Shown in pieces: positions 196 to 59,823 of a DNA stretch of 64,000 bases. This stretch comes from a virus. Location of the stretch: the IMG/VR virus record IMGVR_UViG_3300034082_004432, positions 1-64,000 of that record, one strand, 5' to 3'. Position 1 is the first letter of the stretch; each line of letters opens with the position of its first letter. The notes under the pieces were generated by a model that had not been told where the DNA came from, ran no database searches, and worked only from the letters and a program-made list of their open reading frames with translations. Made by a program: the position numbers and the translations under genes.

Positions 196-201
196 TAAAA
201 T
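196..201 (+). promoter_or_regulatory. -10 element of a leaderless promoter (TGG-TAAAAT)
   Basis: The hexamer TAAAAT, preceded by TGG (a TGn extended -10), ends exactly six bases before the ATG at 208. This places the expected +1 on the A of the ATG. No Shine-Dalgarno sequence is present. The same geometry recurs at six other starts in the window. Confidence 0.65.
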
Positions 202-207
202 TATTAT

Positions 208-1518
208 ATGACCAAAGAAGAATTGCTTAAATTAGTAGAAGAGTATATCAAGAATGAACCAAATAAGAGTTGGAGACCAGGAAAAGATCATGTACATTAT
301 GCTGGGCCTTACTTTGATCATACTGAAATTGTTAGATCAGTATCAACTCTTCTAGATGGTTGGTTAGTTCTTGGTGCTGAAGCCTATAAAGCTGAAAAGA
401 AATTAGCTTCTTTATTTGGCAAAAACCATGCTTTATTGACAAACTCTGGTAGCAGTTCAAATCTTCTTATGATGTCAGCAATTAAGTCAAAAAGATACTT
501 AAATTTGCCTGAAGGAACCAAAGTACTAACTCCTATTGCTGGATTTCCCACTACAATCAATCCCATATTTCAGTGTGGTTTTAAGCCAGTCTTTGTAGAT
601 ATTTCATTAGATGGATTGAACTTGAACTTAGACGATGTTGAAGCCACATTGCAGGCTGACCCAGAGATCAAGATAATTACATTTGCTCATGTACTTGGTA
701 ATCCTCCTGACATGTATAGGCTATTAGATATCATCGACCATTATGGGTTGATTTTGTTAGAAGATTGCTGTGATGCTCTTGGATCGTCATTTGATGGTAA
801 TCCCTTAGGCAGCTTTGGCGCAATGGCTTCTTGCTCTTTTTATCCTGCTCATCACATTACTTGTGGTGAGGGTGGATTAGTTGTTTGTAATGATGAAAAT
901 CTTGAAAAAGTAATTCGTTCTTTTCGTGATTGGGGGCGTGGCTGTTTCTGTATTGGTAAACAAAATATTACAGAATGTGGAGCTTGTAATAAAAGATTTT
1001 CTGAATGGTTGCCAAGTATCCCAGGTGAAGTTTTTGATCACAAGTATGTGTATGAGGAAATTGGTTATAATTTAAAACCAATCGAAGTTCAAGCTAGTAT
1101 GTTGTTGGCTCAAATTGATAAACTTAATGAAATTAAGAAACTTCGCCAAAGAAATCATAAGTTGCTTTTTGATATTTTTAGCAAGTATGAAGAATACTTT
1201 GTTCTTCCAGTAGCACAAAAAAATTCAGATGTTAATTGGTTTGCATTTCCTATTACTATAAAAGATAACGCACCATTTAAGAGAAGTGATTTATGTCAAT
1301 ATTTAGAATCTAAAAAAATTCAAACTAGACCATATTTTGCTGGAAATATTCTTATGCAACCAGCTTATAGTCATTTGGTTGGTGATATGGATCTTGGTGA
1401 TTTTCCTGTAGCTAAAAAGGTAACCACTGATACTTTCTTTTTAGGTACATCTCCAGTAATTACACCGGAACAAATTTATTATATAAGTGATGTTTTGGAT
1501 AGTTTTTTTGACAAATAA
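208..1518 (+). CDS. rfbH: RfbH/DdhC-type NDP-4-keto-6-deoxyglucose 3-dehydratase (E1)
   Basis: This 436-residue fold-type I PLP protein belongs to the DegT/DnrJ/EryC1/StrS superfamily. The PLP-lysine position carries the pair His215-His216 in the motif SFYPAHHITCGEGG, the hallmark of RfbH (E1). RfbH removes the C3 hydroxyl of CDP-4-keto-6-deoxyglucose on the way to 3,6-dideoxyhexoses. A second hallmark is the Cys cluster Cys246, Cys248, Cys257 and Cys260, matching the [2Fe-2S]-binding insertion of that family. Length fits E1 (about 437). E1 normally works with a ferredoxin-reductase-type E3 (DdhD), which is not in this window. The gene is monocistronic, starts at a leaderless promoter and faces the leftward sugar operon. 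Family assignment is firm; the exact nucleotide sugar is inferred. Confidence 0.9.
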   Translation: MTKEELLKLVEEYIKNEPNKSWRPGKDHVHYAGPYFDHTEIVRSVSTLLDGWLVLGAEAYKAEKKLASLFGKNHALLTNSGSSSNLLMMSAIKSKRYLNLPEGTKVLTPIAGFPTTINPIFQCGFKPVFVDISLDGLNLNLDDVEATLQADPEIKIITFAHVLGNPPDMYRLLDIIDHYGLILLEDCCDALGSSFDGNPLGSFGAMASCSFYPAHHITCGEGGLVVCNDENLEKVIRSFRDWGRGCFCIGKQNITECGACNKRFSEWLPSIPGEVFDHKYVYEEIGYNLKPIEVQASMLLAQIDKLNEIKKLRQRNHKLLFDIFSKYEEYFVLPVAQKNSDVNWFAFPITIKDNAPFKRSDLCQYLESKKIQTRPYFAGNILMQPAYSHLVGDMDLGDFPVAKKVTTDTFFLGTSPVITPEQIYYISDVLDSFFDK

Positions 1519-1545
1519 AAATAAAATCAATTAGAACTGAATTTA

Positions 1546-1591
1546 AAGGCCAATAAATAGAGATCTTCATTGACCTCTATTTATTGGCCTT
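1546..1591. terminator. Long bidirectional hairpin between convergent genes
   Basis: A perfect 17-bp inverted repeat (1546-1562 with 1575-1591, core AAGGCCAATAAATAGAG) has a 12-base loop. It lies between the rightward 208 gene and the end of the leftward operon, and its right half includes the last codons and stop of the 1567 gene. The flanks are T- and A-rich but have no clean T run, so bidirectional termination or 3'-end protection is inferred. Confidence 0.75.
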
Positions 1592-4296: not shown

Positions 4297-4301
4297 AGAA
4301 A

Positions 4302-5465: not shown

Positions 5466-5480
5466 TTTACACCCTAATAA

Positions 5481-12671: not shown

Positions 12672-13610
12672 CTAAAGATTGGTAAAATCTTTATTTTTAA
12701 AATTATAAATCATTGCATAAGCTTTGAGAAGTTCTTCAATTCCAGTGTCTAAAGAATAATCACAAAACCATCCTGTTTTTTCAAGCTTTTCATTAGAAAC
12801 AACATAGTTTCTTTTGTCAAAATCTTGCTTAAATTGTTCCTCAATAATTACTAAATTTGGAACATACTCCTTGATCTTTTGAGCAAGCTGAAGTTTGGAC
12901 ATATTGGCAGACGTAAGCCCAACATTGTATGCATTATTGTTACATCGATTATAATTTTCAATCAGATGAACAAAAGCTTTAGCAACATCTCTTACGTGCA
13001 CATAGTTTCGCAAGAAATGAGATTCAAATAAAACTAGAAACTCATCAGTGAATGCTCGGTAAACAAAATCATTTACAAGCAAATCCATTCTTTGTCTATA
13101 TGAGACTCCAAATACTGTTGCTAATCTTAAAGAAATACCATTACCCCATTCTAAAACACGATTTTCTGCATCACATTTTGTTTTTGCGTAAAGAGAAAGA
13201 GGATTGAATGGACTTTCTTCTGTGATGATTGTTTCAGAACTTCCATATTGAGAGTTTGTATTAGGGACTAACAATTTTTGACTTGGTTGAATTATTTCAA
13301 CAATGTCTTTAATTTGTTGATAATTTACAGCTACTGTCAAATCTGGATCTTTTTTGCAAGCTGGCATACCTACAATTGCAGCTAATGGGATGATAATGTC
13401 ATGAGTTTCTACCAGGCTTATAAGAAGTTTGGTGTCACGTACATCACCAACAACAAGCTTGAAGTTCTTTTTATGACAGAATTGTGTCAAAGAAAGTTGT
13501 TTGTAAACAAGACTATCTAAAACAGTTACTGCATAGCCTTTTGAGAGCAAAACTTCAGTCAAAACTGAACCTAAATATCCAGCTCCACCAGTAATTAAGA
13601 CTTTTTCCAT
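12672..13610 (-). CDS. NAD-dependent epimerase/dehydratase with intact YxxxK
   Basis: The product has 312 residues from the ATG at 13610, which overlaps the upstream stop (TAATG). Motifs are LITGGAGYLGS at residues 5-15, a GDVRD strand end, SQYGSSE and catalytic Tyr141/Lys145 (YAKTK). It resembles UDP-glucose 4-epimerase/dTDP-sugar reductase relatives. Unlike the two paralogues at 9136 and 10683 it keeps the catalytic tyrosine. It is the second gene of the leftward operon. Confidence 0.8.
   Translation of the reverse strand: MEKVLITGGAGYLGSVLTEVLLSKGYAVTVLDSLVYKQLSLTQFCHKKNFKLVVGDVRDTKLLISLVETHDIIIPLAAIVGMPACKKDPDLTVAVNYQQIKDIVEIIQPSQKLLVPNTNSQYGSSETIITEESPFNPLSLYAKTKCDAENRVLEWGNGISLRLATVFGVSYRQRMDLLVNDFVYRAFTDEFLVLFESHFLRNYVHVRDVAKAFVHLIENYNRCNNNAYNVGLTSANMSKLQLAQKIKEYVPNLVIIEEQFKQDFDKRNYVVSNEKLEKTGWFCDYSLDTGIEELLKAYAMIYNFKNKDFTNL
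12674..12692 (-). promoter_or_regulatory. Small hairpin next to a ribosome-binding site
   Basis: A 7-bp perfect inverted repeat (AAAGATT/AATCTTT, 5-base loop) sits at the end of the epimerase gene, directly before the AGGAG site of the CgeB-like gene at 12663. It may tune coupling between the two genes or act as a weak partial terminator; no T run follows. Confidence 0.4.
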
Positions 13611-14011
13611 TACCAGCTGATCTCCCAATCCTTAAAATCAGCGGCAAGACAGTCAATTTTATAATCTTTTCTACCACCACAAGCTTCTTGAATTTTGTTT
13701 TTTGCAGTATTTCTAATGCCATTTAATCCGTGTGTTAATTCAAGATTGTTGCCGTCTTTGACACCTTTACGATAATTTGTTTCATTGTGCCAGATATGTA
13801 AATTCATTTGAGACAAAACAACAATTGCTCGAATTACTTCTGCATCTAAGACAACATTATTTTCGTCTATATGTGCTTGAATGTCGTGAATAATTGCACT
13901 TATTTCTTCTGAATATTCTGATTTATGATCAACAATAAAAACTTCTTTAAGTTGGACAATAGACAATCTATCAATAAGTTCAGATAAAGTTGGTAAATAC
14001 TTTCTATTCAT
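13610..14011 (-). CDS. Small helical protein, distantly DUF4254-like
   Basis: This 133-residue soluble, helical protein is the first gene of the leftward operon. The C-terminal half contains MNLHIWHNETNYRKG and a later 'GIRNTAKNKI' helix, which recalls the 'N..lWH.Ed...R' plus 'I...K..Id' pattern of DUF4254 proteins found in cell-surface polysaccharide loci. The resemblance is weak. The N-terminus LPTLSELIDRLSIVQLKEV is a long amphipathic helix. Function unknown. The gene starts at a leaderless promoter. Confidence 0.6.
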   Translation of the reverse strand: MNRKYLPTLSELIDRLSIVQLKEVFIVDHKSEYSEEISAIIHDIQAHIDENNVVLDAEVIRAIVVLSQMNLHIWHNETNYRKGVKDGNNLELTHGLNGIRNTAKNKIQEACGGRKDYKIDCLAADFKDWEISW

Positions 14012-14017
14012 GAGAAC

Positions 14018-14023
14018 ATTATA
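14018..14023 (-). promoter_or_regulatory. -10 element of a leaderless promoter for the leftward operon
   Basis: On the minus strand TTGG-TATAAT-GTTCTC-ATG: a perfect -10 with TGn extension lies exactly six bases before the ATG at 14011. It drives the 16-gene leftward operon. No ribosome-binding site is present. Confidence 0.72.
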
Positions 14024-14036
14024 CCAACAATAAATG

Positions 14037-14042
14037 TATAAT
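14037..14042 (+). promoter_or_regulatory. -10 element of a leaderless promoter for the rightward operon
   Basis: TATAAT followed by TTTTTT and the ATG at 14049, again exactly six bases. It forms a back-to-back pair with the leftward promoter, so only 37 bases separate two operons of 16 and 8 genes. An in-frame ATG at 14034 is upstream of this element and is not favoured as the start. Confidence 0.7.
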
Positions 14043-14048
14043 TTTTTT

Positions 14049-15029: not shown

Positions 15030-15979
15030 AATTAGCTTATATTACAGGTTGTTTAGGTTTTATTGGCAGACAAGTAACTCAACTTTTGCTTGATAAGGGA
15101 TACTATGTTTATGGCATAGACAATTGTACTTATGCCTCTGACGTTAGTGTTTTAGAAAAATGGATGCTTAATCCAAAATTCAAATTTGAAAATAAAAATA
15201 TTTGCAACATTGATAGATTGGTGGATTGTGACTATTTTATCAATATAGCTGCAGAAACTCATGTAGATAATTCTATAAGAGACAGTAAAGTTTTTGTTGA
15301 TTCAAATATTTATGGTGTTCACAACATTCTTGAATTACTTAAGACATACAAAAAAGAAGGATATGTAGTACCAACCCTAATTCACTTCAGCACAGATGAA
15401 GTTTATGGTGATATTGCAGATGGTGAGCATTTTGAAACAGACATCTTGAAGCCTAGTAATCCTTACTCTGCCACAAAAGCTGCTGCAGATCAACTTATTA
15501 TTGCTTGGTCTAGAACATACGACATACCTTTCAATATCATAAGACCTACAAATAATTATGGCGAAGGACAATATGTTGAAAAGTTGATTCCAAAATCTTG
15601 CAAATTTATAGGACTTGAAAGAAAGATACCATTACATAACCAAGGTACTCCAGTAAGAAATTGGCTTCATGCAAAAGACACTGCTCTGGCTGTGTTGAAG
15701 ATTATTGAGGCTGGTAAGCAGAACGAAATTTACAATGTCGCTGGTGGGTTTGAGCAATCAAATGTAGACACAGTAAGAAAAGTTTTGAACGCATACTTTG
15801 GAAAAGAAGTGGATAATTACCAAGACTTTATTAATTTTGGAATTGAAAGACCTGGACAAGATGTCAGATATGCTTTAAATGACGACAAGATTAGAGGTTT
15901 AGGCTGGACTCCTCAGTGTGTTTTTGACGATGAAATCAAAAAGATAGTCGAATATTATAAAACACATTTCATTTGGTAA
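15026..15979 (+). CDS. NDP-glucose 4,6-dehydratase (RmlB-like)
   Basis: This 317-residue extended SDR has the dehydratase signature: GCLGFIGRQ (residues 8-16), the catalytic STDEVYGD with Thr123-Asp124-Glu125, and Tyr147/Lys151 in YSATKAAAD. RPTNNYGEGQ follows. The enzyme oxidises C4 and dehydrates C5-C6 of an NDP-glucose to the 4-keto-6-deoxy form, the substrate class needed by the two PLP 3-dehydratases. It could act on dTDP-, CDP- or GDP-sugars. The start overlaps the upstream stop (ATGA). Confidence 0.9.
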   Translation: MKLAYITGCLGFIGRQVTQLLLDKGYYVYGIDNCTYASDVSVLEKWMLNPKFKFENKNICNIDRLVDCDYFINIAAETHVDNSIRDSKVFVDSNIYGVHNILELLKTYKKEGYVVPTLIHFSTDEVYGDIADGEHFETDILKPSNPYSATKAAADQLIIAWSRTYDIPFNIIRPTNNYGEGQYVEKLIPKSCKFIGLERKIPLHNQGTPVRNWLHAKDTALAVLKIIEAGKQNEIYNVAGGFEQSNVDTVRKVLNAYFGKEVDNYQDFINFGIERPGQDVRYALNDDKIRGLGWTPQCVFDDEIKKIVEYYKTHFIW

Positions 15980-15982
15980 AAT
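15977..15982 (+). promoter_or_regulatory. -10 element of an internal leaderless promoter (TTGG-TAAAAT)
   Basis: The hexamer TAAAAT includes the stop codon of the 4,6-dehydratase gene and lies exactly six bases before the ATG at 15989. The TTGG extension is identical to that of the 14011 promoter. It allows separate expression of the last seven genes of the operon. Confidence 0.65.
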
Positions 15983-15988: not shown

Positions 15989-16789
15989 ATGAATAATAGA
16001 GAATTTGAGTGTGTTAGAATTCTGACAGATCTAGTAGAAAACTACGGATTGGTTGGCGTTAAGACAAGTTTTGAAGACGAAGGAGCTGCATTTAATGAAG
16101 TTCTTAGACTTAAAGAAATTTGTAATCAAGCAAAAACAAAAGTAACCTTAAAGATAGGTGGACCAGAAGCTATAAGAGATATCAAAGACTCTATGATCAT
16201 TGGAGTAAAGGGTTTGGTAGCCCCGATGGTTGAGTCTGAATTTGGTTTAACTAAATTTGTTCAAGCTGTTAATAATAATTTACCTTCCGAAGTTGTAAGT
16301 TCGTTGCAGCTTAATGTGAATATTGAGACTATTTCTGCAGTTTTAGCTATTGACAAAATTCTTTCAAACCAAAACGCATCTGCTTTGTATGGAGTTACTG
16401 TCGGAAGAGTAGATTTAGTTTCTTCAATGGGAGCAGATAGAAGTCACGTAAATTCTGAAGAAGTTTACAATATGGCTCATGATGTTTTTGAAAGAACTAA
16501 AAAGCTTGGTGCTAAAGCTTGTATTGGTGGTGCTGTTTCAATTGATTCATTAGACTTTTTAAAGAAATTACACTCTGAAAAACTTCTTGATAAGTTTGAA
16601 ACAAGATATGCAATATTTGATCCTTCAATTACACTAAAGAATTTATCCAGAGCACTATTCAAGGCTCAAATGTTTGAATACGAATGGCTTACAAACAAGA
16701 TGGAATATTATCAATCTCAAGCCAATCAAGATGAATCAAGAGTTAAAATGATTCAAGCTCGTATAAATAAATCAGCTTCTGAATTATGA
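15989..16789 (+). CDS. HpcH/HpaI-type aldolase (citrate lyase beta family)
   Basis: This 266-residue TIM-barrel protein has motifs LKIGGPEAI (about residues 51-59), GVKGLVAPMVES (metal-site Glu) and VGRVDLVSSMG, typical of the HpcH/HpaI aldolase family. These enzymes use Mg2+ and a pyruvate or oxaloacetate enolate in aldol reactions. In a surface-sugar operon the enzyme may add or remove a three-carbon unit. A C-terminal helical extension (about residues 230-266) is not part of the barrel. The start overlaps the next gene's start by ATGA. Confidence 0.75.
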   Translation: MNNREFECVRILTDLVENYGLVGVKTSFEDEGAAFNEVLRLKEICNQAKTKVTLKIGGPEAIRDIKDSMIIGVKGLVAPMVESEFGLTKFVQAVNNNLPSEVVSSLQLNVNIETISAVLAIDKILSNQNASALYGVTVGRVDLVSSMGADRSHVNSEEVYNMAHDVFERTKKLGAKACIGGAVSIDSLDFLKKLHSEKLLDKFETRYAIFDPSITLKNLSRALFKAQMFEYEWLTNKMEYYQSQANQDESRVKMIQARINKSASEL

Positions 16790-36006: not shown

Positions 36007-36012
36007 ATTTTA
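36007..36012 (-). promoter_or_regulatory. -10 element of a leaderless promoter (TGTAAAAT)
   Basis: On the minus strand TAAAAT is followed by TATTTC and the ATG at 36000, exactly six bases. It lies between the end of the upstream gene (36017) and this start, allowing separate expression of the tail operon. Confidence 0.6.
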
Positions 36013-37693: not shown

Positions 37694-37702
37694 AATTTCT
37701 CC

Positions 37703-37740
37703 AAAAAAAATAAAGGCCATCCGACTGGATAGCCTTTATT
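37703..37740 (-). terminator. Strong rho-independent terminator/attenuator
   Basis: On the minus strand AATAAAGGC...GCCTTTATT forms a 9-bp perfect stem extended by a T-G wobble pair and ATCC/GGAT, with an AGTC loop, followed by a run of T. It follows the 37759 gene. The ribosome-binding site and ATG of the next gene start directly behind the T run, leaving no room for another promoter. Confidence 0.85.
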
Positions 37741-42490: not shown

Positions 42491-42496
42491 TACAAT
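42491..42496 (+). promoter_or_regulatory. -10 element of a leaderless promoter (TACAAT)
   Basis: TACAAT is followed by TAATTT and the ATG at 42503, exactly six bases. It begins eight bases after the previous stop, in the 19-base gap. It gives the Asn-rich fibrous gene its own promoter. Confidence 0.6.
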
Positions 42497-42502: not shown

Positions 42503-45500
42503 ATGTCAGATATTGATTTTATCGAATATGATAAAATTTCAATTGCTTCAGATGCTTTCGTATCATCTGCAGAGTTAAATTGTTATTTTCAGTATTTACC
42601 TTCCACAAAAGCAACTTCTTTTAATATAAAGAAAGAGTTGCATACTGCTGGCACGACTGAAGACCCTGATGATTATAAAGTCCCAGATGTTTCTATCAAA
42701 ATTTTGCCAAGAAAACTTTATAGAATTAATCCTTTTCACACAAACTACTCAGAAAATATTGAGTTAAATAAAGTAAATATTGATCCTGATATTATTTATC
42801 CAACCAAAATAAAAGAAAAAAGAGAAAAATTAATTGATTATAGTGCTTTAGGATTGAATGACGATCAAATTGAATTTATGATTGCTTTACAGAATTTAAA
42901 GTCATTAAAAACTGATGATACAATTAAGATATTAGATTTAGAACAGTTTGAATTTGTAGACGAAAAAGTTATGAATGGCTTTTTTCAGATATACCCTAGA
43001 TTCATGGAAATGCTTACAACTGGAGTAAGCTCTGGAGGTCTTGGACAATTTTATGACGACACCGAAAGTTCAGAGTCTATAAATGCAAACGAAGCATTGA
43101 TAAATGAAAGTTTGAAAAAACTCGGTTTAAATCCAAGCGAAGTTAAAGTAAAAAAAAAATTTGAAGTAAGACCAGGTAATTCAAACAAAGATTCTATCAA
43201 CGAATATTTGCAAGATATTTCTTTTTCAAATAAAAATCCATCAAATAATGTTGTTGTTAATAATAATTCTACGACAAACATCAATCAATTAAATTTACAA
43301 AATTATAATAAAATACAATCACAAATAAGATCTTCAAACGTTACAAATAATGTTACATCTTTGAATAAAACTGATTTTAATTTTGTTGATAATAATAATA
43401 GAACTTTAAATCAAATAGTAAATAATGTAAATAAATTTTCTGATTCTAGTAAAATTGATTTTGATAATATTTATAAAAGTTTCTTAAAAGGTTTGAATTT
43501 GTCTCCAAATGTTGAAAATCAATTCTTCAAAATAATCAATCAACATAGCAAGAACTTAAGTTTTGAATTTAATAGAATTTTAAATATATCAGATAAAACG
43601 GTGTATGAAACCAACCTGAAAAATTTATCTACTTCTTACAATTTCTACAGACACATTGAAAATAGATATAGAGAATTTATTCAAAATCTAAATTTTTTCA
43701 ACGACACTGTCCAAGAAATAAAACAAACAGAAATAAATTTACGAAACACTTATCAAAACATTCACAGACATAGTGTAACTCATAAAAATAATCATTACAA
43801 AAATATTCTTAATTTGACCAAAAATGTCAACTACGAATACACTGCAAATGATTATGAATTCCAATATGCAGTCTTGAAAACAATCAAGAATAGCAATCAG
43901 TATGTTGAAAGTAAAATCTCTAAGATAAAAAATGACTTGAATATAACTCAACAAAATTTATCTTTTGTCAACCATCGTGTAGTTCATATTCAAGAAAAAA
44001 CAAACAATTATATAGCTCGTGAAATTAAAAACGTTCTTAATAACACAGATTATGTCGATGAATATTCAAACATTGTAATTAATAAAATAAGTAATATTTC
44101 CAACAATCAAACTGTAAGATCTTTATTGTCCCTAGTTTCTAATGAAGAAAAATTAAATAATTTATTTACAGTTCTTAGACAAAGCAACATCAACACAAAT
44201 AATATCAAAAACTTGGTTGATGTAATAAATTTTTCAAAGAATAGTAATCTTGAAATATCCAAAGTATCAAGTTCAACTGTTGAAAATATAAAGAACTTAA
44301 TTTCTTTATCAAAAAATATTATCGATATAAACAATACTGAAAATCAAATTGTAAATAATATAGATAATAAAATATCTTCAAAAAATTTACAAGAATTTAA
44401 TTCTATTCTTAATTTATCAGAATCAAAATCGTTTACTCGAATAGCTCAGAGCTTTAAACAAGTTTCAAGCGTTTTAGAAAACTTAAACACCCTATCTGTA
44501 AATCCAAAGTTTTCATCAATTTATGTAGATCAGAAAAAAGTACAAGAAATAGAAAATGTTTCTAAAATAAATAAAACAATTAATAAATTAGATGTAAATT
44601 ATATTGTGGAAAAGTTATCAAACTTCAATACTGAAAATTTAACTGAAAAAATAGATTTGATCAAGAATATTAATGTCATTCAAGAATTCAAAAAACAAGA
44701 AAATTTTGTAAGAAAAGTTACTAGATTGGCAAAATATAATGTAAATCAAATTTCAGAAAATATTGATGCTATATCTAGCTTTGAAACAAACTTTAGTAAA
44801 ACAGAATTCAACTCAGAAATTGAAAAATTAAAAAATCTTATAAATGCGACCAAAGATATCAAGCAAACTACTGTTGATAATCTAAGCAAAATAAACATAT
44901 CTAAACTAGATAATATCAAAGTCTCTCAATTTAATTTGGTAAGCAATAATCTTGAAAAATTATCTCAGCTTACAAATGTATCCAACTTATCCCAAGAAAA
45001 CATTGATGTAATTAAGCAAATTACTTTATTGAATAACGTCAACGAAAGTAAAATAAATCAAGTTTCCAATTTGATAAATCTTACAAATTCCAAAGAAATT
45101 CAAAATCTTAAAATTTCAAATATAAATGAAATTTCAAATGTTGTTCAAAAAATTTCTAAATTTGACAATAAAGAATTATTGAATGTTATCAATTTGACAA
45201 AGATAGCGCAAGAAAGAAAAGTATACAATAGAATTTCAAACATAATTAAGAATGTTGAAATTTTGGATTCAGTAAATGTTACTCAAGAAACTGCTACTAA
45301 TATTAGTAAGATTTCTAATACTAATAATATCAATCAAATTACTAAAGATTTGAATTTAATCTCTCAAAATTATAAAGAATTCAAGACAAGCATTCAACAA
45401 ATAAATAAAGTATCTCAAGTTAAGAATATAGATCAAATAGTTAAAAATTTGAATTATGTAAACAATGTATTTCAAGAAAATAATTATGAAAATCGTTTAA

Positions 45501-46477
45501 GTAAAATTGATCAAAAAGACTTTATTACAGCTATTAATTTGAGTAAAAATTATATTCAATCATTTAATAAATTTGAAAGCAAAATAAGCAACATTTCGCA
45601 AAGACAAAGAATTAGAGAAACCTTACAAGATATTAACATTACAAATTCTGTTCAAAACAATTCAGTAGTTCAAATTACGAATAAGACTCAAAAGGTCCAG
45701 ATGCAAGAATTTATTCAGAGTTTAAACCTGTTAGAGACTGAGCAAAATACAAATATTCTCAATCGTTATAGTTTTGAAAGTAATAAGAAAAATATTTCAA
45801 ATTTATTTACTGAATTGAATTTGACTCAGCAAATAAAACAAGAAAAAAGAACTGAAAAAGAATTTGCTCGTATTTCAAAACGCATCGATAAAATGAGTAA
45901 AGAAACTATCAAAGTACAGGGAAATTCTTACAAAGTTGAACAAAATTTCTTTGACATGATGAATTTTTATAATGATCAGAAAATTTCTAAGACAAGTAAA
46001 GATAGAAAAGTTAATAATTTCTTTCAACTCTTAGATGTATTAAATGTTCAAAAAACAACAAACGAAAGAAAAGTCACTCAGAAAATACATAAAATCGAGC
46101 AGATTCAAAATCGTATCATAAATAATACATCACAAATAAAAATAGATGTCTATAAAGAGAAAAAAGAAAACTATTACAAAATAGATAACAGGCAGACATT
46201 TACTTCCAATAATTATCATTCAGAAAAAGAAGAACAGAAAAAAACTGAAAAAATAGTTGAAAACAAAGTAGAAGAGTTGTTTGTCAAGAAAATTGAAAAT
46301 GTAACAAATAATTTAGTATCCAATGTCATTACGAAAAATGAATTCAATACTATCAAAAAAGAAATAATTCAAGAAATTTTTAACATAGAAGCAAAGACAG
46401 AAGAGAAGATCAAAGAGCTGCGTAAGGAAACCCAGCAGACTGTACAAACTATGTTAGATAGATTCCTAAGAAGTTAA
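42503..46477 (+). CDS. Asn-rich helical repeat (fibrous) protein
   Basis: This 1324-residue protein has a globular N-terminal 200 residues, then about 1000 residues strikingly rich in Asn, Lys, Ile, Ser and Leu. These are organised as degenerate helical repeats with recurring 'N-I-S-K-I' and 'I-x-x-L-x-N-V' type phrases (for example NVVQKISKFDNKELLNVINL). The C-terminus is a charged coiled coil (NIEAKTEEKIKELRKETQQ). No signal peptide or enzyme motif. It is probably a long fibrous virion protein. It is directly followed by the giant PKD protein, with the next ATG starting right at its stop. Confidence 0.6.
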   Translation: MSDIDFIEYDKISIASDAFVSSAELNCYFQYLPSTKATSFNIKKELHTAGTTEDPDDYKVPDVSIKILPRKLYRINPFHTNYSENIELNKVNIDPDIIYPTKIKEKREKLIDYSALGLNDDQIEFMIALQNLKSLKTDDTIKILDLEQFEFVDEKVMNGFFQIYPRFMEMLTTGVSSGGLGQFYDDTESSESINANEALINESLKKLGLNPSEVKVKKKFEVRPGNSNKDSINEYLQDISFSNKNPSNNVVVNNNSTTNINQLNLQNYNKIQSQIRSSNVTNNVTSLNKTDFNFVDNNNRTLNQIVNNVNKFSDSSKIDFDNIYKSFLKGLNLSPNVENQFFKIINQHSKNLSFEFNRILNISDKTVYETNLKNLSTSYNFYRHIENRYREFIQNLNFFNDTVQEIKQTEINLRNTYQNIHRHSVTHKNNHYKNILNLTKNVNYEYTANDYEFQYAVLKTIKNSNQYVESKISKIKNDLNITQQNLSFVNHRVVHIQEKTNNYIAREIKNVLNNTDYVDEYSNIVINKISNISNNQTVRSLLSLVSNEEKLNNLFTVLRQSNINTNNIKNLVDVINFSKNSNLEISKVSSSTVENIKNLISLSKNIIDINNTENQIVNNIDNKISSKNLQEFNSILNLSESKSFTRIAQSFKQVSSVLENLNTLSVNPKFSSIYVDQKKVQEIENVSKINKTINKLDVNYIVEKLSNFNTENLTEKIDLIKNINVIQEFKKQENFVRKVTRLAKYNVNQISENIDAISSFETNFSKTEFNSEIEKLKNLINATKDIKQTTVDNLSKINISKLDNIKVSQFNLVSNNLEKLSQLTNVSNLSQENIDVIKQITLLNNVNESKINQVSNLINLTNSKEIQNLKISNINEISNVVQKISKFDNKELLNVINLTKIAQERKVYNRISNIIKNVEILDSVNVTQETATNISKISNTNNINQITKDLNLISQNYKEFKTSIQQINKVSQVKNIDQIVKNLNYVNNVFQENNYENRLSKIDQKDFITAINLSKNYIQSFNKFESKISNISQRQRIRETLQDINITNSVQNNSVVQITNKTQKVQMQEFIQSLNLLETEQNTNILNRYSFESNKKNISNLFTELNLTQQIKQEKRTEKEFARISKRIDKMSKETIKVQGNSYKVEQNFFDMMNFYNDQKISKTSKDRKVNNFFQLLDVLNVQKTTNERKVTQKIHKIEQIQNRIINNTSQIKIDVYKEKKENYYKIDNRQTFTSNNYHSEKEEQKKTEKIVENKVEELFVKKIENVTNNLVSNVITKNEFNTIKKEIIQEIFNIEAKTEEKIKELRKETQQTVQTMLDRFLRS

Positions 46478-52400: not shown

Positions 52401-55400
52401 AAACAGCTGACGTTCAAAACCCAGAACACATTTATGCAGATCCTGGCAAATACAGAGTGGTTCTTACTGTTACTGATTCTGGAGGACTTCAAGTCTCAGG
52501 AACAATTGAAATTACAGTTGCTCCTCCAGGAAATAATCCGCCCATTGCAAACTTTAATTTTTCTCAACAAAATAGAAAGTTGATTGTAGAATTTACTGAT
52601 CTATCTTCTGATTCTGATGGGATAATATCTTTGTGGAGTTGGGATTTTGGTGATGGCTCTACAGATCTTGTTCAAAATCCTACACACGCATATTCTATAG
52701 CTGGTACATATCAAGTAACTTTGAAAGTAACTGATAGCGGCGGTAAATTTAGTTCTATCACAAAAAATGTAATAGTTGCTCCACTAATAAACTTACCTCC
52801 AATTATAAATAATATTTCTGGTTCACAAATTGGTTTCACACCTTTACAGGCAAAATTTACCGAAATATCTATAGACCCAGATGGTTTTATAACAAAATGG
52901 GATTGGAATTTTGGAGATGGACAAACTTTTTCGACGACAAATAGTTTGCTTAAAAACCCAACTCATACATACTTTCTACCTGGAACGTATACAATTAGAT
53001 TAACTGTAAGTGATGATGGATTGGCTGACGGTACAGAAATTAAAACAGCTACATCTTCTATCGAAATTACAATTGTTTCACCTCCTGCAAACAAACCACC
53101 TATAGCTTTATTCAATGTTGATATCAATAATATTTTGGCACCAGCAGTGATAAACTTTACTGATCTTTCTTCTGATTTAGATGGAAAAATAGTTTCATGG
53201 CTATGGGAATTTGAAGCTAATTCGTCATTGTTTTTCAATATTCAAACCTATCAAAAAGTTGTTTCACATAGATTTACAAGATCTGGTATATATCCAGTTA
53301 AACTCACCGTTACAGATGACGGAAATCTTACAAATACTTATATATTTGAAGTAAATATTAAAAATAATTTACCTGTGGCTGAATTATCAGCTTTTCCTAA
53401 TCCAACTTTGTCTCAAACACAAGTCAACTTTTTTGGTAATAATTCATATGATCTAGATGGGAGTATTACTAAATATAATTGGGACTTTGGAGATGGAAAT
53501 AAAATTCTTCAAGGCAGTACAAGAGAAAGCCATGTTTACACTAAACCTGGTGTATATAATGCTTCTTTGACAGTAACAGACAATATCGGAGACACATCAA
53601 CAGCTAATTTACAAATTACAATTACAAATAGAAATCCTGTTGCAGTCATTACTTATACGTCTCTAAGCGTTAAAGCTCCAGGCAGTTTAACTTTTAACGG
53701 TGATACATCTTATGATCCAGATGGAATCATAGTTTCATATAACTGGTCAACAACAAATGGACTTTCTGCAAACACACCAAACGCAACTTTTAATTTTACA
53801 GTAGAAGGTTCTTACACAATTTACCTAACTGTAACAGATGATTCAGGTGGCACTAATACAACCAGTGTTTTAGTAATTGTCACACCAGCTGATAATGTTT
53901 TGCCCATTGCTATTTTAAATGTTGATAAAAGTTCTGGAGTGATAAATGATACTTTTACTTTTGACACACTTGGATCGTATGATCCAGATGGAAATATTGT
54001 TTTATATCAAATAGATTTTGGTGATGGAACTTCAAAACAATTTGCAACTCCAGGCCCAATTTTACATTCTTACAATAGGGTTGGAACATTTACTGCAAAA
54101 CTTACCTTGACGGATAATAGAGCTGGCCAAAGTTTAGAAACATTAAACTCTAAAAAAATTATAATTATAAATAATCAGCCTCCAGTATCATCTTTTTCAT
54201 TTACTCCAAATAATGCTTTTACTTTTGATGTAATTAATTTTTCAGATAATTCTACAGATCCAGAAAATAATTTGGTCAGGTGGGATTGGGATTTTGGTGA
54301 TGAAACAAGTTTTACAACAAGAGATCCTTTGCAAAAATCTCCGCAGAAATCTTACAATAAGGGTAAAAGAAATTACACAGCATCTTTAACCGTTTATGAC
54401 AACATGGGATTATCAAACACATCATCTCAAGTTGTAAGCATTTTAAATAGAAAACCATTTGCAGTAATATCTACAAACACTGCCCCATCCAATAACACTA
54501 TTTCTGGAATAGCTCCTTTTACTGTTGTTTTTGATTCAAACTCTTATGACTTGGATGGAACAGTAGTTGATTATGAATGGTATTTGAATGGTATTTCTAG
54601 CACACCTTTTATAACCAAAACTTTTACTTACACATTTACAACAGCAAGATTTATTCCATATGTTGTAACTTTACGTGTCAGAGATGATGATGGAGATTGG
54701 AGTGATGTTGCATCAATTGGTGTTAAGGTAAACCCAGAAAATATTCCACCCGTTTCAGTAATTAGAGCAAACCCAGAATCAAATACAAGACAAGCACCAG
54801 TGACAGTAAGTTTTTCAGGAGCTGGAAGTTACGATCCTGATAATATTGGTGGCGAACTTATTTATTCATGGGACTTTGGCAATGGTAGTAGATCAAGTCT
54901 TGTAAATACGGACACAGTTTATTCACAGCCAGGTACTTATAAAGTTTCATTAACTGTAACCGATAACTTGGGAGCTAGTAATACTGCAACACTAGATTAC
55001 ATTGTTAAAAATAATAAACCAATTGCAGTATTAGACACAACGCCACCAGGTATTACACAAGTTGAAATAAATACTCCAGTATTATTTACTTCAAATGGAA
55101 GTTATGATCCAGATAATAATCAATTTATAAATGGATATAAGTGGCTTGTAGATGGAGTGAATCAAAATTCAAACACACCAACATTATCTACATCATTTAG
55201 CTCAATTGGTTATCACACAGTAACTTTATCTGTTTTTGATAATTTGGGATTAGAATCAGATCCTGTGTCAAAAACTCTGTTTATCATCTCAAATCCACCA
55301 CCGCCATTAGCAAATCAAAATCCAATTGCTATTTTGGGTAATGAGCCAGGAATAACTGGTTATATTGAATTGAAAGTTGGAGATACTTTTACCTTTGATG

Positions 55401-56887
55401 GAACCAGATCTTATGATCCTGAAGATACCAAAAATATAACCTTCGAATGGTCTATAAATGGTGTAAAGTCTGGATTTAATTCTACATTTGTAAATCAATT
55501 CAACATGGTTGGAATATTTACTGTTAGCCTTGTAGTATTTGACAGTCAAAAACTTGCATCAACCCCAGCAACAAATTTAGGTCAAAGATATACGGTAGAT
55601 GTAAACGTTACTGTTCTACCTAATCCTTTAGCAAATAAACTATATTCTTCAGGTCAAGCATTATACGGAGCAATTGCAAGTGGAAGTAATACACCTGATA
55701 GATATGGATTTCAGTTGATAGATGATACAAAACAATACACAATCATTGAAGCTGGTCTTTACCATACTTTTGTGGTAGATATAGATGGAAAATTATACGC
55801 AAGTGGATCAAATAGCAACGGTCAGCTTGGATTTCCATCCAACATTTCACAGTTGAATTCACTTACTTTGGTTCCTTTGGCAGCAAAATACAAGGTAATC
55901 AAAGTATCTGCTGGAGATTTATGTTCGGCTATTATAGCTGAAGACACATCAATTAATAAAAGAGTTTTACTAGTTTGTGGCTCCAATGTAAACGGAATAT
56001 TTGGTCAATCTTTACCTTTGACAAATATATTTTCATTTCAACCAATATTGGAAAAATCGAATACTAATAATGGATTTAGTTATGCTTCCAGTAACAGTCT
56101 GGCTGATGTATCTTGCAACTCTTATATACTTGCATTTATAGACAATAAACAAGTTTGGGTTAGTGGTAGATCTAGATATGTTAATAAATTAGGAATTTCT
56201 AATTTAGGATTCTATCCAGTCAATATAGATCCAAATCCTGATAAATATATTGGAAGTACAAATTATTTGAATCCTTTTAAAGTAGAAGTTGGATTTAATA
56301 ACGGTTTGGGATTTGTTACTGGAATATCATTTGACATAGATAATCAAATAGTTTGGTTTAGTGGTTTGTCAAGTTTAAGAGGGTGGGGATATGCTTATGA
56401 TATCTCAACATATGAGAACAATATAATTATTATAGCTTCTTCTCAAGATCCAGCAGAAGAAAGAAGTATTATTTCATATGGCTTCGCTACTAATGAAATA
56501 CCTGTTTTCAATGTTGGATATCAGGTGGCATCTTATAGAAATCCTGGGCAATCATATATAAAAGTTTCAACAGGAGCACTTGGACTTTTGGCTTTATCTC
56601 AAGATAATTTTTATCCATATGGAGACAATTCTTTTGGAGCTTTGGGATTTGCACAAAGCTATACGAATTCTAGAAATGAAAATATTAAGAGTGGTGTACC
56701 AATAAATGTAATTCTGTCAAATGCTGGAGTTATAGGAGCATATGATATTGCAGCTGGTGGAAATCATTCAGTCATATTAGCATCTAATATCAAGCCATCT
56801 GGACAATCTTTTACAATTATTAGACCTGACGGGTATCCAATTATTACAAATCTTACTATTTATCCAATTACTCAAATAGTTGGGTAA
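46478..56887 (+). CDS. Giant virion protein with ~14 PKD domains and RCC1-like propeller
   Basis: This 3469-residue protein divides into three parts. Residues 1-1739 are beta-rich with no recognised domain, and there is no signal peptide. Residues about 1740-3050 are some 14 tandem PKD domains, each with the N-x-x-P-x-A opening, SYDPDG/SSDSDG turn, WDFGDG (or variant) strand and LTVTD end. Residues about 3055-3455 show RCC1-like repeats (LYASGSNSNGQLGF, PYGDNSFGALGF, and AGGNHSVIL near the end), which form a beta-propeller. It likely makes a long adhesive fibre; the PKD stack is the stalk and the propeller the tip. Both are inferred from domain order. Confidence 0.85.
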   Translation: MATYKTNRSRTTSFIGKFKFNYEIVLGVIPGTEFNFNERKQDFATSAAVNFSHDAFTFNGAVLNNPPVEAAFRYPGGGADINQGLVVYDEVAKKVYILFSFTLEKRNEFQSTTRMSGPFVLEVVDFNYEQSPREGNFKIVSGSVEGTVFYGAPLDEYVSIEEFFPSEIKTEPSRTGCGNDEFVVQKEFDKNTVRQFPRYTTLNWFELIRPSSSGTMGIKLTAVNSKGQVNEFSKSVPISFGLSRRMNYTAGKVLNAWARNLSNSGYIATYGLASDAKSQITAKTDTVSVDLSNFSVNTVYDQYYNNISNAYINYSGEPTRTVTFDAEVYDWKTNHTDPLTAYLVGFGSTSWPQQYKRIKYNKAQFETVETNSGKISSSQTYDRIGLALVEANTYILGRPTQRDSKSITFDNTQKWIFGMLDGAKSKEIFDDLDSPTDHMDYPTKYILGADGCEDVNFLNQELTISELELPSSSFSIPIPLRGWKFPALTLFQQKEYLIPGTSNIRSFLGDGNEPNYYGNQNLSGYRYLNLQLKSKNNDQQSGIFTIEEISKGPTTLQNTTLTNKKTWSIKTNSSTFQNLYIDLCNPDNKIDNVDNQDSPYPRLNAYTTSKPLSVSSFGLLSAENKPSDDFIITKPKSGIESKTWINEVVKKQIQNSGIIYLSDSKSTNIDYFEVNTSAFPSSGGTNIIYGRPRVFNGKIKLASPFNALDGFTYDDNGNRKDIIPDYFRTLDLYIPKNDLTAGKSIDELLLRNQKGEYTEEFEVYDFDPGFPDETDILGKTVAQYTDGDLNIFTNPIQFLKQNNNPYDGVIIENPSTKVRKTYKFNEYFSLNDNGLNYITIILPSSFDRNIVFPSGSNIRLGFLDKKTDDAFRSCVIKIKKIDKIQQNKFRATLEYAKIDKNSPPNYAGIAVSNNGVYTFFSPNAPLVTVVPTRLLEFTFPLDTSLFTNIVSRDPNQNEVNAIDDYPEDEATNGPYYGVSRIAKIELDNPLIELGETKLTRTNSKANFVISGNNNTFEAKTRFNASSKITTEYFTRRFWQQNTDARDEEEGDIEWQHTQSETVDYWTPFPKSIADFCNDVNKIDQYVAPSWLDTNNSATNVIRHPGWIATKSNKSYPVDPITGNRIYTNKLDPEYLNPDTGYASWIFGGGILALPNGKTTGSGTTYQKAIDIDLNQLRIILAQTIFHRINGDFPPGLPDLFGNTSLRNQDGSAQESVLHLRGGLIARAPGHGLILPPRKSSVEDVRKANLIEVFSQQNKGSSESDIIGFYETGSVYGKNRRDHFIELEKSKNFPTPSDFRSSVRNLSQAKRERTSFKGGKTNIATNLTACESGFEQAIVIAYTVPSTKTGEENQTAVITTDSFFTTQYEKYPVGFNVNTGIGITLKGEFPFLISSELHINQTKRIHTFLLTERNSVKNSTSSHDYDSLISANTDMRNQASWHPYIQGEPKVDANFSTLSKAFKSTKLNSYLITDQAAQLFNVGYADPGAILVRSIPLNITNITAPLTDKTIFIDGVAPTFTSDFRLLEPIASSGTAHSSFPTIVQLSSREYAVAYSMSATPRKINLKIISNYQAQDRNTLLDLDVLSGNTINSDYNIYGLTSDYDEKLGLHRSVFWCNGNIYYFEHAMHSVDMNLKRNETLHLIKGRLDDPLVLELSNRKNIITYYDSSSEFNASVPKHKPALISCKKQEYNGKVIVAYDTGKCNIEAVLLNPYASILGVRKFDIECINTSDSTNTDTITNTKPIANISANPTSGQSALFVSFLSTNSYDPSGSALTYVWNFGDDTQSTEENPTHTFINNTTDPIQFKVSLVVTNANGFSSDPATVIITVNPAPVNNLLPQAKFSGTPISGSVTLSVTFTDQSSPANDGSFIQLYQWDFGDDNTAIKFDNQSFTYDYTRAGKFTPSLIIRDNLLRISSKFIGPTITVDGTVNNPPSPSFNWAQTSYSPNLKVKFTDTSSDDEGPLVAWSWNFGDNQTADVQNPEHIYADPGKYRVVLTVTDSGGLQVSGTIEITVAPPGNNPPIANFNFSQQNRKLIVEFTDLSSDSDGIISLWSWDFGDGSTDLVQNPTHAYSIAGTYQVTLKVTDSGGKFSSITKNVIVAPLINLPPIINNISGSQIGFTPLQAKFTEISIDPDGFITKWDWNFGDGQTFSTTNSLLKNPTHTYFLPGTYTIRLTVSDDGLADGTEIKTATSSIEITIVSPPANKPPIALFNVDINNILAPAVINFTDLSSDLDGKIVSWLWEFEANSSLFFNIQTYQKVVSHRFTRSGIYPVKLTVTDDGNLTNTYIFEVNIKNNLPVAELSAFPNPTLSQTQVNFFGNNSYDLDGSITKYNWDFGDGNKILQGSTRESHVYTKPGVYNASLTVTDNIGDTSTANLQITITNRNPVAVITYTSLSVKAPGSLTFNGDTSYDPDGIIVSYNWSTTNGLSANTPNATFNFTVEGSYTIYLTVTDDSGGTNTTSVLVIVTPADNVLPIAILNVDKSSGVINDTFTFDTLGSYDPDGNIVLYQIDFGDGTSKQFATPGPILHSYNRVGTFTAKLTLTDNRAGQSLETLNSKKIIIINNQPPVSSFSFTPNNAFTFDVINFSDNSTDPENNLVRWDWDFGDETSFTTRDPLQKSPQKSYNKGKRNYTASLTVYDNMGLSNTSSQVVSILNRKPFAVISTNTAPSNNTISGIAPFTVVFDSNSYDLDGTVVDYEWYLNGISSTPFITKTFTYTFTTARFIPYVVTLRVRDDDGDWSDVASIGVKVNPENIPPVSVIRANPESNTRQAPVTVSFSGAGSYDPDNIGGELIYSWDFGNGSRSSLVNTDTVYSQPGTYKVSLTVTDNLGASNTATLDYIVKNNKPIAVLDTTPPGITQVEINTPVLFTSNGSYDPDNNQFINGYKWLVDGVNQNSNTPTLSTSFSSIGYHTVTLSVFDNLGLESDPVSKTLFIISNPPPPLANQNPIAILGNEPGITGYIELKVGDTFTFDGTRSYDPEDTKNITFEWSINGVKSGFNSTFVNQFNMVGIFTVSLVVFDSQKLASTPATNLGQRYTVDVNVTVLPNPLANKLYSSGQALYGAIASGSNTPDRYGFQLIDDTKQYTIIEAGLYHTFVVDIDGKLYASGSNSNGQLGFPSNISQLNSLTLVPLAAKYKVIKVSAGDLCSAIIAEDTSINKRVLLVCGSNVNGIFGQSLPLTNIFSFQPILEKSNTNNGFSYASSNSLADVSCNSYILAFIDNKQVWVSGRSRYVNKLGISNLGFYPVNIDPNPDKYIGSTNYLNPFKVEVGFNNGLGFVTGISFDIDNQIVWFSGLSSLRGWGYAYDISTYENNIIIIASSQDPAEERSIISYGFATNEIPVFNVGYQVASYRNPGQSYIKVSTGALGLLALSQDNFYPYGDNSFGALGFAQSYTNSRNENIKSGVPINVILSNAGVIGAYDIAAGGNHSVILASNIKPSGQSFTIIRPDGYPIITNLTIYPITQIVG
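51695..55640 (+). repeat. Tandem PKD-domain coding repeats (~14 units)
   Basis: About 14 units of 85-105 codons run from residue 1740 to 3050 of the giant protein. Units diverge in sequence; several have lost the WDFGDG core (for example one has WLWEFEAN and others have WYLNG, WLVDG or WSING), so they are old duplications rather than recent copies. Confidence 0.85.
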
Positions 56888-56910
56888 AGGTATAACATCA
56901 CTTTAAATTT

Positions 56911-56916
56911 TATAAT
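56911..56916 (+). promoter_or_regulatory. -10 element of a leaderless promoter (TATAAT)
   Basis: A perfect TATAAT followed by TAATAT and the ATG at 56923, exactly six bases, in the 35-base gap after the giant gene. Gives the baseplate-hub-like gene independent expression. Confidence 0.65.
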
Positions 56917-56922
56917 TAATAT

Positions 56923-59823
56923 ATGAACCTTTCCCCAGATCCACGACAACTTAAAACAAATGTTACTTTAAGTATTTTGAATGCACCAGAAAGTGGATTT
57001 TTTTCTGGAGAATACTCAGCTTCTTCTGCGACAAAAGCTCAAGATAATCTAGCTGTATTAAACTACGACTTCAACCCTACGTACACTGATAGTGAAGGTA
57101 ATTCTGAACCAAAATATAGCACTAGACTTAAAGTTTTGTCATCGCTGCAAAATGCTAGAATTCCAGAAGTAAATACATCTATAAGTGCATCATCTTGCAC
57201 TTTTGCTTGGGGCTCAATTGCTCCTGACGAAGTTGATCCATTCTTAAACTTACTCAAAGGTCCTTCAAAAGAACTTTACGATCCTGTTTTTATTGGATCT
57301 CCCACTACTGGTACTGTTACAGCGCCTGTAGATCAAAGCACCCCTCAATTTCCAAAAATTCCATTTACAGGTGAAGGAAATACTCTGGTCACTTACAACA
57401 TATGGAATACTGTCAATCCAGACTTATCCCCAGTTACAAAAGAGGCTTATAAATATATTGGTCCAGCAATCAAGGGTAAAAATACAGGAACACTCAGAAC
57501 AATAAAAGATCCAACATATGGAGCTCAAGTAGAAGTAACTTCAATAAAAACAGTTACGCAAATAATGAGATATTTTCCAACTTCTTTTGATGCTGTATAT
57601 CAAACAAATGCGGAAATTGTAAATCCAGATGGCAACAAAGAACCGATATTGGCTAGAGGAACTTTAGGCAACAATGGATTTCACATAAATTTTTCAATAT
57701 CAAATTTTCAAGAATCAACATCTTCTATCACAGTACTTGTAGCTGGTGGGATACCAGATAAAAATAATGATTTTATATGTAGTATGGCCATTATTTTTGA
57801 ATTAAATAAAAAACCTGTCATAAAAATTTATGATCCAGATACAAATCAGTTTTTGATACAAACTGATGTAATTGCTCCAGTACTAGATTCAACTACAATG
57901 TCATCCTATGATTTGTTTGTGCATTTCGCAGGACCAAACATGCTTATAGGTTTTAGTCCTGACATCACAAAATGGAACACTATTATAAATTTTAGTGGAA
58001 GAGAAGTTTATTTTAATCCAGCCACTTCAATAGTTATGACGATGAGCAATTGCAATCTCAAATTTAGATATTCAGCAATTATTTTTAATAATTACAATAA
58101 TGATCAACCAGCGAATTCTAAAGAAAACTATATTGTTGCTGAGTTCAAGTATTCTGGGTCAAAAATTCCAGATGTAAAAGCGTTTGTCGATGTAGTAAAA
58201 AAACATTTTGAAAAATCAGCTTATATGATAAATGCATCTCCAAGGTCTACTGGATTTAATGAATCAAATCCAAAAGATAAAAACATTTCATATTTTAAGG
58301 ACTTTAGATTAGACGCAAATCAATTTTCTGATATAGTTCCTATAAAATTTCCAAATTACACAAGCGCAGACAAAGACAAAAAAACAGTTTATTTAAAACT
58401 CATATATAATACAACAATTGAAGGTCCAGCATTTTTACAAATTGAAGTACCTCATCCTGGAATATTAGCTGCTGAAGGAGTAGCAAATTTAAATTCAGGC
58501 AATAAAGGAGAAACAGATTACAAGTTTGTTAATCCTGTACTAAATCAACTTTTTTATGAAGTTGGAAATGTTACTGGATGGGTTGATTCTTGGTCTGTTA
58601 GTTGTCAAGCAGTCTTATCAAATTTATCTAGAATTACAAAATCTGCAACAATAACCTTAAAAAACATAGATTCCGAAGAAGGATACAAATTTATCAACGC
58701 TATTGAAAACAATTTGTTGGTAGTAACAATAGATGCTGGTTATGTTCAAGGAAGCTTAAGCACTTATTTTCAAGGTTTTATTACAAATTCTTCATATTCC
58801 AGAAAAGGAAATGACAGCACTTTTACTCTTACATGTCAGGATTTAGCATCATTTATACTTGATAATATTTACTTTGATAAAAACATCTTGCTAGCTGGAA
58901 TGAGACATGACTTAGCTATTGATTCTATTATGGCTAGTTCTGGCTTTTGGTCATATTATTTTAGAAATAACAATGATTCATTATCGGGTGGAGTAATAAG
59001 TGGAATTGATTTGAGATTAAATAGCAGCTCCACTAACAATCAAGATCTTATTAAGCTTAATCCATTAGATAAAATTTATGACAAACTTGGAAAACTTCTA
59101 GAAAGACTAAACAATCCATATTCTTTACCAACTTTTAGATGGGCAGAAAAGTATGGATTTATATTGGAATGTCGAAATAACTACATAGATAAAGATCTGA
59201 AATTTACAGGCTTAAATCCAGCTGGCACTCAATATCTTTTTCAAAGCAACGAATCAAATCCACAGAATTATTTGGCAAAGTTTCAAACTGATTTGCATGG
59301 ATTGTTAGTTGATGAATATACTATTACTACTGATATCAAAAACCTAGCTGCAGGAGTCAGAGTATTTGGTACAGCTATAACAGGATTCTTAGCTGATGAA
59401 AGATACTCACCTGCTTCCGTTTCTTTGCAAGATGTTCCCATTGAGGCTCAACTTAGCTTGCTAAAATATCTAGCTAAAGCTCCTTTTGATGCAACACAAG
59501 CACCATATGTAGGCTTCAAAAAATATTTAATTTGGGCTACTCAAAGAAATGAAATTCCAGATCAACAAGTCTTGAAAAGAATTACTGATAGTGTTGAGCT
59601 AGTTTCCAAGACTCCAATAAGCGCAATATCTTTTTCATGCTATGTTACAAAGCCACTTACATTTCATGGAAAATTTATGATAAATGTTTTCCAAGGACAA
59701 AATGCAAACTTTACTGATCAATATGTGTATCAAAGTATAGATTATTCTTACGATAAAAATAACAACTTAATAACAGCAAATGTAAGAGGAACTAATATGC
59801 CAATTTCTTTAGGGGGAGTATAA
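56923..59823 (+). CDS. Baseplate-hub-like virion protein with N-terminal extension
   Basis: This 966-residue protein carries the hub-like core between about residues 560 and 830: ITKSATITLKN, an FQGFITNSSYS strand and LTCQDLASFIL. This is the typical order of phage tail hub/late-control-D-like proteins, whose barrels build the baseplate spike base. The N-terminal half adds a large beta-rich region (possibly lectin/laminin G-like, SFDAVYQ to FNPATS), longer than in simple hubs. The start is set by the leaderless promoter. Hub identity is inferred from strand pattern. Confidence 0.6.
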   Translation: MNLSPDPRQLKTNVTLSILNAPESGFFSGEYSASSATKAQDNLAVLNYDFNPTYTDSEGNSEPKYSTRLKVLSSLQNARIPEVNTSISASSCTFAWGSIAPDEVDPFLNLLKGPSKELYDPVFIGSPTTGTVTAPVDQSTPQFPKIPFTGEGNTLVTYNIWNTVNPDLSPVTKEAYKYIGPAIKGKNTGTLRTIKDPTYGAQVEVTSIKTVTQIMRYFPTSFDAVYQTNAEIVNPDGNKEPILARGTLGNNGFHINFSISNFQESTSSITVLVAGGIPDKNNDFICSMAIIFELNKKPVIKIYDPDTNQFLIQTDVIAPVLDSTTMSSYDLFVHFAGPNMLIGFSPDITKWNTIINFSGREVYFNPATSIVMTMSNCNLKFRYSAIIFNNYNNDQPANSKENYIVAEFKYSGSKIPDVKAFVDVVKKHFEKSAYMINASPRSTGFNESNPKDKNISYFKDFRLDANQFSDIVPIKFPNYTSADKDKKTVYLKLIYNTTIEGPAFLQIEVPHPGILAAEGVANLNSGNKGETDYKFVNPVLNQLFYEVGNVTGWVDSWSVSCQAVLSNLSRITKSATITLKNIDSEEGYKFINAIENNLLVVTIDAGYVQGSLSTYFQGFITNSSYSRKGNDSTFTLTCQDLASFILDNIYFDKNILLAGMRHDLAIDSIMASSGFWSYYFRNNNDSLSGGVISGIDLRLNSSSTNNQDLIKLNPLDKIYDKLGKLLERLNNPYSLPTFRWAEKYGFILECRNNYIDKDLKFTGLNPAGTQYLFQSNESNPQNYLAKFQTDLHGLLVDEYTITTDIKNLAAGVRVFGTAITGFLADERYSPASVSLQDVPIEAQLSLLKYLAKAPFDATQAPYVGFKKYLIWATQRNEIPDQQVLKRITDSVELVSKTPISAISFSCYVTKPLTFHGKFMINVFQGQNANFTDQYVYQSIDYSYDKNNNLITANVRGTNMPISLGGV

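Follow-up and report, generated by a model that had tools for sequence, protein, structure and literature searches.

Exactly six bases separate a −10 hexamer (TANAAT) from the ATG of seven genes in the 64 kb of DNA analysed here (the window), which is the first part of a 121,334-bp IMG/VR virus record, a phage contig. These sites (called N6 below) are very probably leaderless transcription units of a lineage of large tailed phages, read by a polymerase of the housekeeping sigma-70/A type. Direct reading of the sequence gave hexamer and spacing exactly at 7/7 of the starts for which the initial annotation of this DNA had reported them, and the TGG extension that it described is present at 208, 14011 and 15989. 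Its further statement that these starts lack a Shine–Dalgarno (SD) sequence was borne out, no SD of at least four bases being found at the starts scored.

Fixed spacing of the hexamer at gene starts

TANAAT stands at distance 6 in seven of the 47 genes of the window, as against a mean of 0.30, and never more than two, at the other 44 distances between 0 and 44 (Poisson P ~3e-8). When the upstream 60-mers of the same genes were shuffled 2000 times, the count at distance 6 averaged 0.31 and reached a maximum of 4. The contig has an eighth N6 start beyond the window, at 88212, before a DnaJ gene. When the entire contig is scanned without regard to gene starts the enrichment is weak (21 matches against 14 for the reversed pattern), because most such matches fall inside genes; the signal is at gene starts.

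Scans of IMG/VR with the 1324-residue protein encoded from 42503 and a 378-residue protein (36584–37720) yielded 12 further contigs, two of them of 316 and 358 kb. Of these, G001, nearly identical to the window contig, was excluded from the counts; the set analysed comprises the window contig and 11 others (12 contigs, 1,368 open reading frames (ORFs)), with genes called by a simple ORF script and not by a trained gene finder. The distances in this set form a single main peak: 109 genes have the hexamer six bases from the ATG, and the other distances average 10.7, counts that are not independent across contigs because the orthologues are related. The enrichment is present in 12/12 contigs, involving 6.6–11.9% of the genes in each and about 8% (roughly one in twelve) overall. 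Some counts favoured a motif-bearing ATG as the start where one was available; an unbiased scan of all hexamers at all offsets used the first ATG instead, and ranked TATAAT at −12 first, with 58 occurrences against 2.66 expected, and GTATAA at −13 second. The same script was applied to four low-GC comparator phages, namely the whole of T4, 200 kb of phage G, 200 kb of LR756504 and 220 kb of Lak-A1 (TAG read as sense), all of which lack the distance-6 spike: T4 has 0 such genes (mean at other distances 2.1), phage G 0 (2.3), Lak-A1 4 (3.0) and LR756504 5 (5.4).

Predicted position of the transcription start

The −10 hexamer of sigma-70 promoters covers positions −12 to −7 (PMC3160421), and with six bases between hexamer and ATG the transcription start would therefore fall on the A of the start codon. 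The base at −1, for which the motif search made no selection, is a pyrimidine in 105/109 motif starts (96%), against 42/146 TANAAT-N6-ATG matches elsewhere and 46% of other ATG starts (P=2e-18 for the comparison with the latter); together with the A of the ATG it constitutes the pyrimidine–purine (YR) preference of initiators. Across the non-redundant set of 69 promoter sites the consensus is GTATAAT, with G at −13 in 45/69 (65%) and TG at −15/−14 in 15/69 (22%), features that resemble extended −10 promoters and agree with a sigma-70/A −10 element.

SD sequences are depleted at these starts, those of at least five bases occurring at 3/102 N6 starts against 258/1171 others (P=1.5e-7) and those of at least four bases at 12/102 against 540/1171. 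N6 is absent from genes that abut or overlap the preceding one (0/287 with an upstream gap of at most 5 bp) and present at 29/89 of those with a gap of 6–30 bp, and an intrinsic terminator stands just upstream of 14/109 N6 genes against 51/1258 others (P=4e-4). At the gene starting at 208, about 15 bases lie between the end of a strong hairpin and the −10, which leaves little other room for a promoter. After the motif the start codon is ATG in 109 cases, TTG in four and GTG in one.

The motif, its fixed spacing and conservation, the pyrimidine at −1, the SD depletion, the room upstream and the upstream terminators are all computed properties of these sequences. We infer the transcription start, the polymerase with its sigma factor and the leaderless ribosome route as follows. 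A bacterial RNA polymerase carrying sigma-70/A would recognize the −10 element (GTATAAT, with a weak −35), melt the DNA and initiate transcription at the seventh base past the hexamer, which is the A of the start codon. The messenger RNA would start with 5′-AUG and be translated without an SD via the leaderless route of the ribosome, while genes abutting an upstream gene would depend on an SD or on coupling.

Conservation and switching among orthologues

Among orthologues of similar length N6 was kept for the genes starting at 36000 (8/8), 42503 (6/6 scored), 56923 (5/7), 15989 (3/4), 14011 (4/8) and 88212 (4/5); for 14049 it was retained in 0/2. The RfbH-like gene at 208 has N6 in 6/6 orthologues of 436–438 residues, the rest of its cluster being shorter paralogues of 382–389 residues. 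Before the ATG at 42503 the string TTTACAATTAA recurs in 8/8 relatives, though the sequence farther upstream diverges. In a footprint of the orthologue groups, conservation at −14, −13 and −1 almost equals that of the box, and most flanking columns lie at 40–70%; conservation of the box itself arises by construction in this plot, whereas those three columns were not fixed by the way the sites were chosen, and the retention counts are unaffected.

The 133-residue gene at 14011 is arranged differently in several relatives. Its orthologue in G003 has a TATAAT about 18 bases from the ATG with AGGA in between, that in G008 has a leader carrying AAGAGA, and in G006 and G009 the spacing between hexamer and ATG is 7. 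Read in this way, the orthologue family switches between a putative leaderless form and a short leader with an SD, and constitutes a natural experiment. The leaderless transcripts proposed in the initial annotation thus find support in every sequence test available, namely the distance spike, the YR signature, the SD depletion, the upstream terminators and the switching orthologues.

Candidate polymerase and alternative explanations

The likely reader of the N6 promoters is the host sigma-70/A RNA polymerase, because their −10 consensus is that of housekeeping promoters and a few of them carry a full TTGACA at 16 bp; TTGACA-16-TATAAT is found in full at some promoters of G012. The multisubunit RNA polymerase domains PF00562 and PF00623 were undetected in nine contigs, which may be incomplete and in which divergent subunits could be missed, and a T7-type polymerase was sought through PF00940 with no match, but the control genomes gave none either. 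A simple −35/−10 promoter scanner applied around positions 14–16 kb found no excess over shuffles and did not list the leaderless sites, because it demands a −35.

Several observations weigh against a host housekeeping polymerase starting precisely on the ATG. The −35 is weak on average: most of the 69 sites are without a clear one (TTGACA at 15–19 bp spacing), and at least five matches to TTGACA occur in 6/69 against about 2.3 in shuffles. At a minority of starts the hexamer lies 7, 8 or 9 bases before the ATG (24, 14 and 12 genes in the 12 contigs), and the precision of the start may therefore vary. Lastly, the actual reader could be one of the sigma-like proteins encoded by some of the relatives.

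It is conceivable, albeit unlikely, that such a phage-encoded sigma factor acting on the host core polymerase, and not the housekeeping sigma of the host, reads these −10-only leaderless promoters. The short sigma-70-like proteins, of about 180–230 residues and with up to three region-2 matches per genome, are encoded by five relatives (two to three matches in each large genome), and the three that were scanned also match PHROG sigma factors. The 188-residue sigma-like protein is itself preceded by N6 in 5/5 contigs that carry it, and the combination of a weak −35 with a strong −10 resembles the late promoters of T4, which have both properties. Against this, the motif equals the −10 consensus of housekeeping promoters and a full TTGACA −35 is found at some sites, while the genes served include chaperone, sugar-biosynthesis and virion genes and so do not obviously form a single temporal class. 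Judged by eye from their sequences, moreover, the phage proteins appear to lack the aromatic pair of sigma-70 region 2.3, and the window contig, possibly a fragment, has no sigma match. An extension of this idea, in which a phage sigma expressed from a leaderless message would redirect the host polymerase to −10-only promoters and so switch key genes to SD-independent translation during infection, is more doubtful still.

There is similarly little probability that the leaders are very short, with transcription starting 1–3 bases up- or downstream of the A and giving near-leaderless messengers. The genes with the hexamer at 7, 8 and 9 bases speak for this reading, but the N6 starts combine their pyrimidine at −1 with the A of the ATG, which gives the favoured YR initiator at the favoured spacing.

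It is very improbable that TANAAT-N6-ATG serves translation, as an A/U-rich and unstructured region for initiation within a normal leader, and is not a promoter. A/U-rich, unstructured sequence before the ATG does favour SD-independent initiation in some bacteria, for which a Flavobacterium study (PMC6847099) offers a comparison. However, the exact hexamer, the exact distance, the G at −13 and the pyrimidine at −1 fit the rules of sigma-70 and its initiators better than base composition, and the motif is missing from genes that abut the preceding one, in which a signal for translation would be equally useful. A subset of the sites lies directly 3′ of intrinsic terminators, and an SD-like word appears between box and ATG once the box moves away.

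Chance, in the form of TATAAT-like words near starts in AT-rich intergenic DNA, is refuted by the motif scan that the initial annotation had proposed, by the counts at other distances and in shuffles, and by the four low-GC comparators, none of which has a spike above its own mean, despite genomes of 31–34% GC and the feeble raw scan, since the excess at gene starts in window and family alike and the retention of the motif by orthologues uphold the view of the initial annotation that the spacing is hard to explain by chance.

Features of the window and its relatives

The coordinates of the seven sites and associated features are collected in Table 1. The mechanical ORF caller starts the gene at 14049 from an in-frame ATG at 14034, which precedes and runs into the −10 box. 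This gene and the one at 14011 are divergent (14009–14051), and because their −10 boxes lie 13 bp apart the two promoters necessarily overlap and are probably mutually exclusive; comparable divergent layouts occur in G005 and G010. The promoters at 42491 and 56911 have T, not G, at −13 (CTTTACAAT and TTTTATAAT), unlike most other sites, and are possibly a subclass.

Table 1. Features of the window, with sigma-like proteins of related contigs. Positions are those of the window unless a contig is named; −10 elements and leaderless genes are predictions.
Feature	Position	Strand	Remarks
Intrinsic terminator hairpin	150..181	+	Fold −18.4 kcal/mol; just 5′ of first predicted leaderless promoter
−10 TAAAAT with TGG extension (193–195)	196..201	+	TAAAAT-TATTAT-ATG, N6 to ATG 208
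Leaderless gene, RfbH-like CDP-4-keto-6-deoxyglucose-3-dehydrase (E1)	208..1518	+	NCBIfam NF011936, 441 bits, above cut-off; PDB 3bcx
Leaderless gene, 133 residues, without family match	13610..14011	-	Start configuration switches between orthologues
−10 TATAAT with TGG extension	14018..14023	-	TATAAT-GTTCTC-ATG, N6 to ATG 14011
−10 TATAAT	14037..14042	+	TATAAT-TTTTTT-ATG, N6 to ATG 14049; 13 bp from divergent −10 at 14018–14023
Leaderless gene, 326 residues	14049..15029	+	Without Pfam, PHROGs or NCBIfam match
−10 TAAAAT with TGG extension	15977..15982	+	TAAAAT-ATATTT-ATG, N6 to ATG 15989
Leaderless gene, HpcH/HpaI aldolase-like protein	15989..16789	+	Pfam PF03328
Leaderless gene, double zinc-ribbon protein, 182 residues	35452..36000	-	Pfam PF12773
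−10 TAAAAT (CTGTAAAAT)	36007..36012	-	TAAAAT-TATTTC-ATG, N6 to ATG 36000
−10 TACAAT	42491..42496	+	TACAAT-TAATTT-ATG, N6 to ATG 42503
Leaderless gene, 1324 residues, without family match	42503..46477	+	N-terminus conserved from Met1
−10 TATAAT	56911..56916	+	TATAAT-TAATAT-ATG, N6 to ATG 56923
Leaderless gene, baseplate hub-like tail protein, 966 residues	56923..59823	+	PHROG 196 baseplate hub, 1.3e-10
Sigma-70-like proteins	G003 162938; G004 112692; G011 110929, 311147; G012 68634, 203372, 219958		Region-2 matches
188-residue sigma-like family	G003, G004, G006, G011, G012		N6 in all five contigs

The region from 208 to 21780 is a variable sugar-biosynthesis cassette, with related cassettes in G002–G012. 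Its members include the RfbH-like protein (208), a heptose-kinase-like protein (3526), an AroB-related sugar-phosphate cyclase (17409) and an acetolactate-synthase-like thiamine pyrophosphate enzyme (18424), together with SDR reductases and many paralogues of a family of about 300 residues; the product is possibly a CDP-linked dideoxy or branched sugar. Very large ORFs of 3469 residues (46478–56887) and 2857 residues (contig positions 77423–85996) lie near genes with virion-protein matches. An alternative genetic code was rejected, as TAA, TGA and TAG all act as stops, and an Rfam search of the window found nothing.

Phage-encoded DnaK, DnaJ and full-length GyrA, the last with six C-terminal repeat matches, are present (L002 9332–11023, 5212–6195 and 15597–18116), and the phage DnaK is less than 60% identical to the best copy among INPHARED phages. 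Searches for the host gave no assignment: two conserved proteins have no match in INPHARED phages, and by the scans available no GTDB contig encodes a relative of the conserved 378-residue protein or of the phage GyrA. No transfer RNA was found in the window or in the 42 loci scanned.

Comparison with known systems

Our analysis suggests that a lineage of large uncultured phages conserves leaderless starts at virion, chaperone, sugar-biosynthesis and sigma-like genes, with SD sequences at many others, and would predict a host that translates leaderless messengers efficiently. It would also allow start-codon calls to be corrected, as at 14049, and offers an evolutionary set in which one gene appears to flip between leaderless and SD-led forms.

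The late promoters of the giant phages AR9 (AACA-N6-TA/G) and phiKZ (TATG), which are read by phage multisubunit RNA polymerases, likewise have short elements set at a constant distance from the start site (PMC5312081). According to the same source AR9 leaders measure 26–491 nt and phage transcripts are often leaderless. The sites described here differ in having the −10 of bacteria as their motif and a predicted leader length of zero, and no domain of a phage polymerase was detected.

Closer parallels exist in bacteria. In Deinococcus–Thermus a −10 motif about 6–7 bp before the ORF acts as a promoter and gives leaderless messengers (Zhong et al., 2025; PMC12340547), and the phage −10 likewise lies close to the ORF, six bases before starts that we infer to be leaderless. 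The D. radiodurans motif, however, stands before nearly a third of genes and is mostly TACACT (PMC12340547), whereas the phage motif is found at about 8% of genes as TATAAT, TAAAAT or TACAAT with G at −13. TA-led genes were defined as leaderless by a TANNNT located some 12 bp before the start (Zheng et al., 2011; PMC3160421); in low-GC genomes they show TATAAT and a TG peak, and the authors argue that within an operon leaderless starts are open only to the genes next to the promoter. The phage sites share the hexamer at about 12 bp, the lack of an SD and the TATAAT and TG signals, and they likewise show an excess of the hexamer over shuffles and promoter-proximal room.

Genes of such geometry having been described in many bacteria (PMC3160421; PMC12340547), the novelty implied by the initial annotation was overstated: bacteria are already known to start genes without a leader from a −10 close to the ATG, and the apparent novelty lies in the conservation of this arrangement throughout a phage lineage. 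A large-phage lineage with conserved and widespread leaderless −10 use was not found in the open-access literature searched, an absence that is no proof of novelty. Unlike the TA-led genes of bacteria (PMC3160421), the architecture described here spans a family of uncultured phages, the orthologues of which are available for footprinting.

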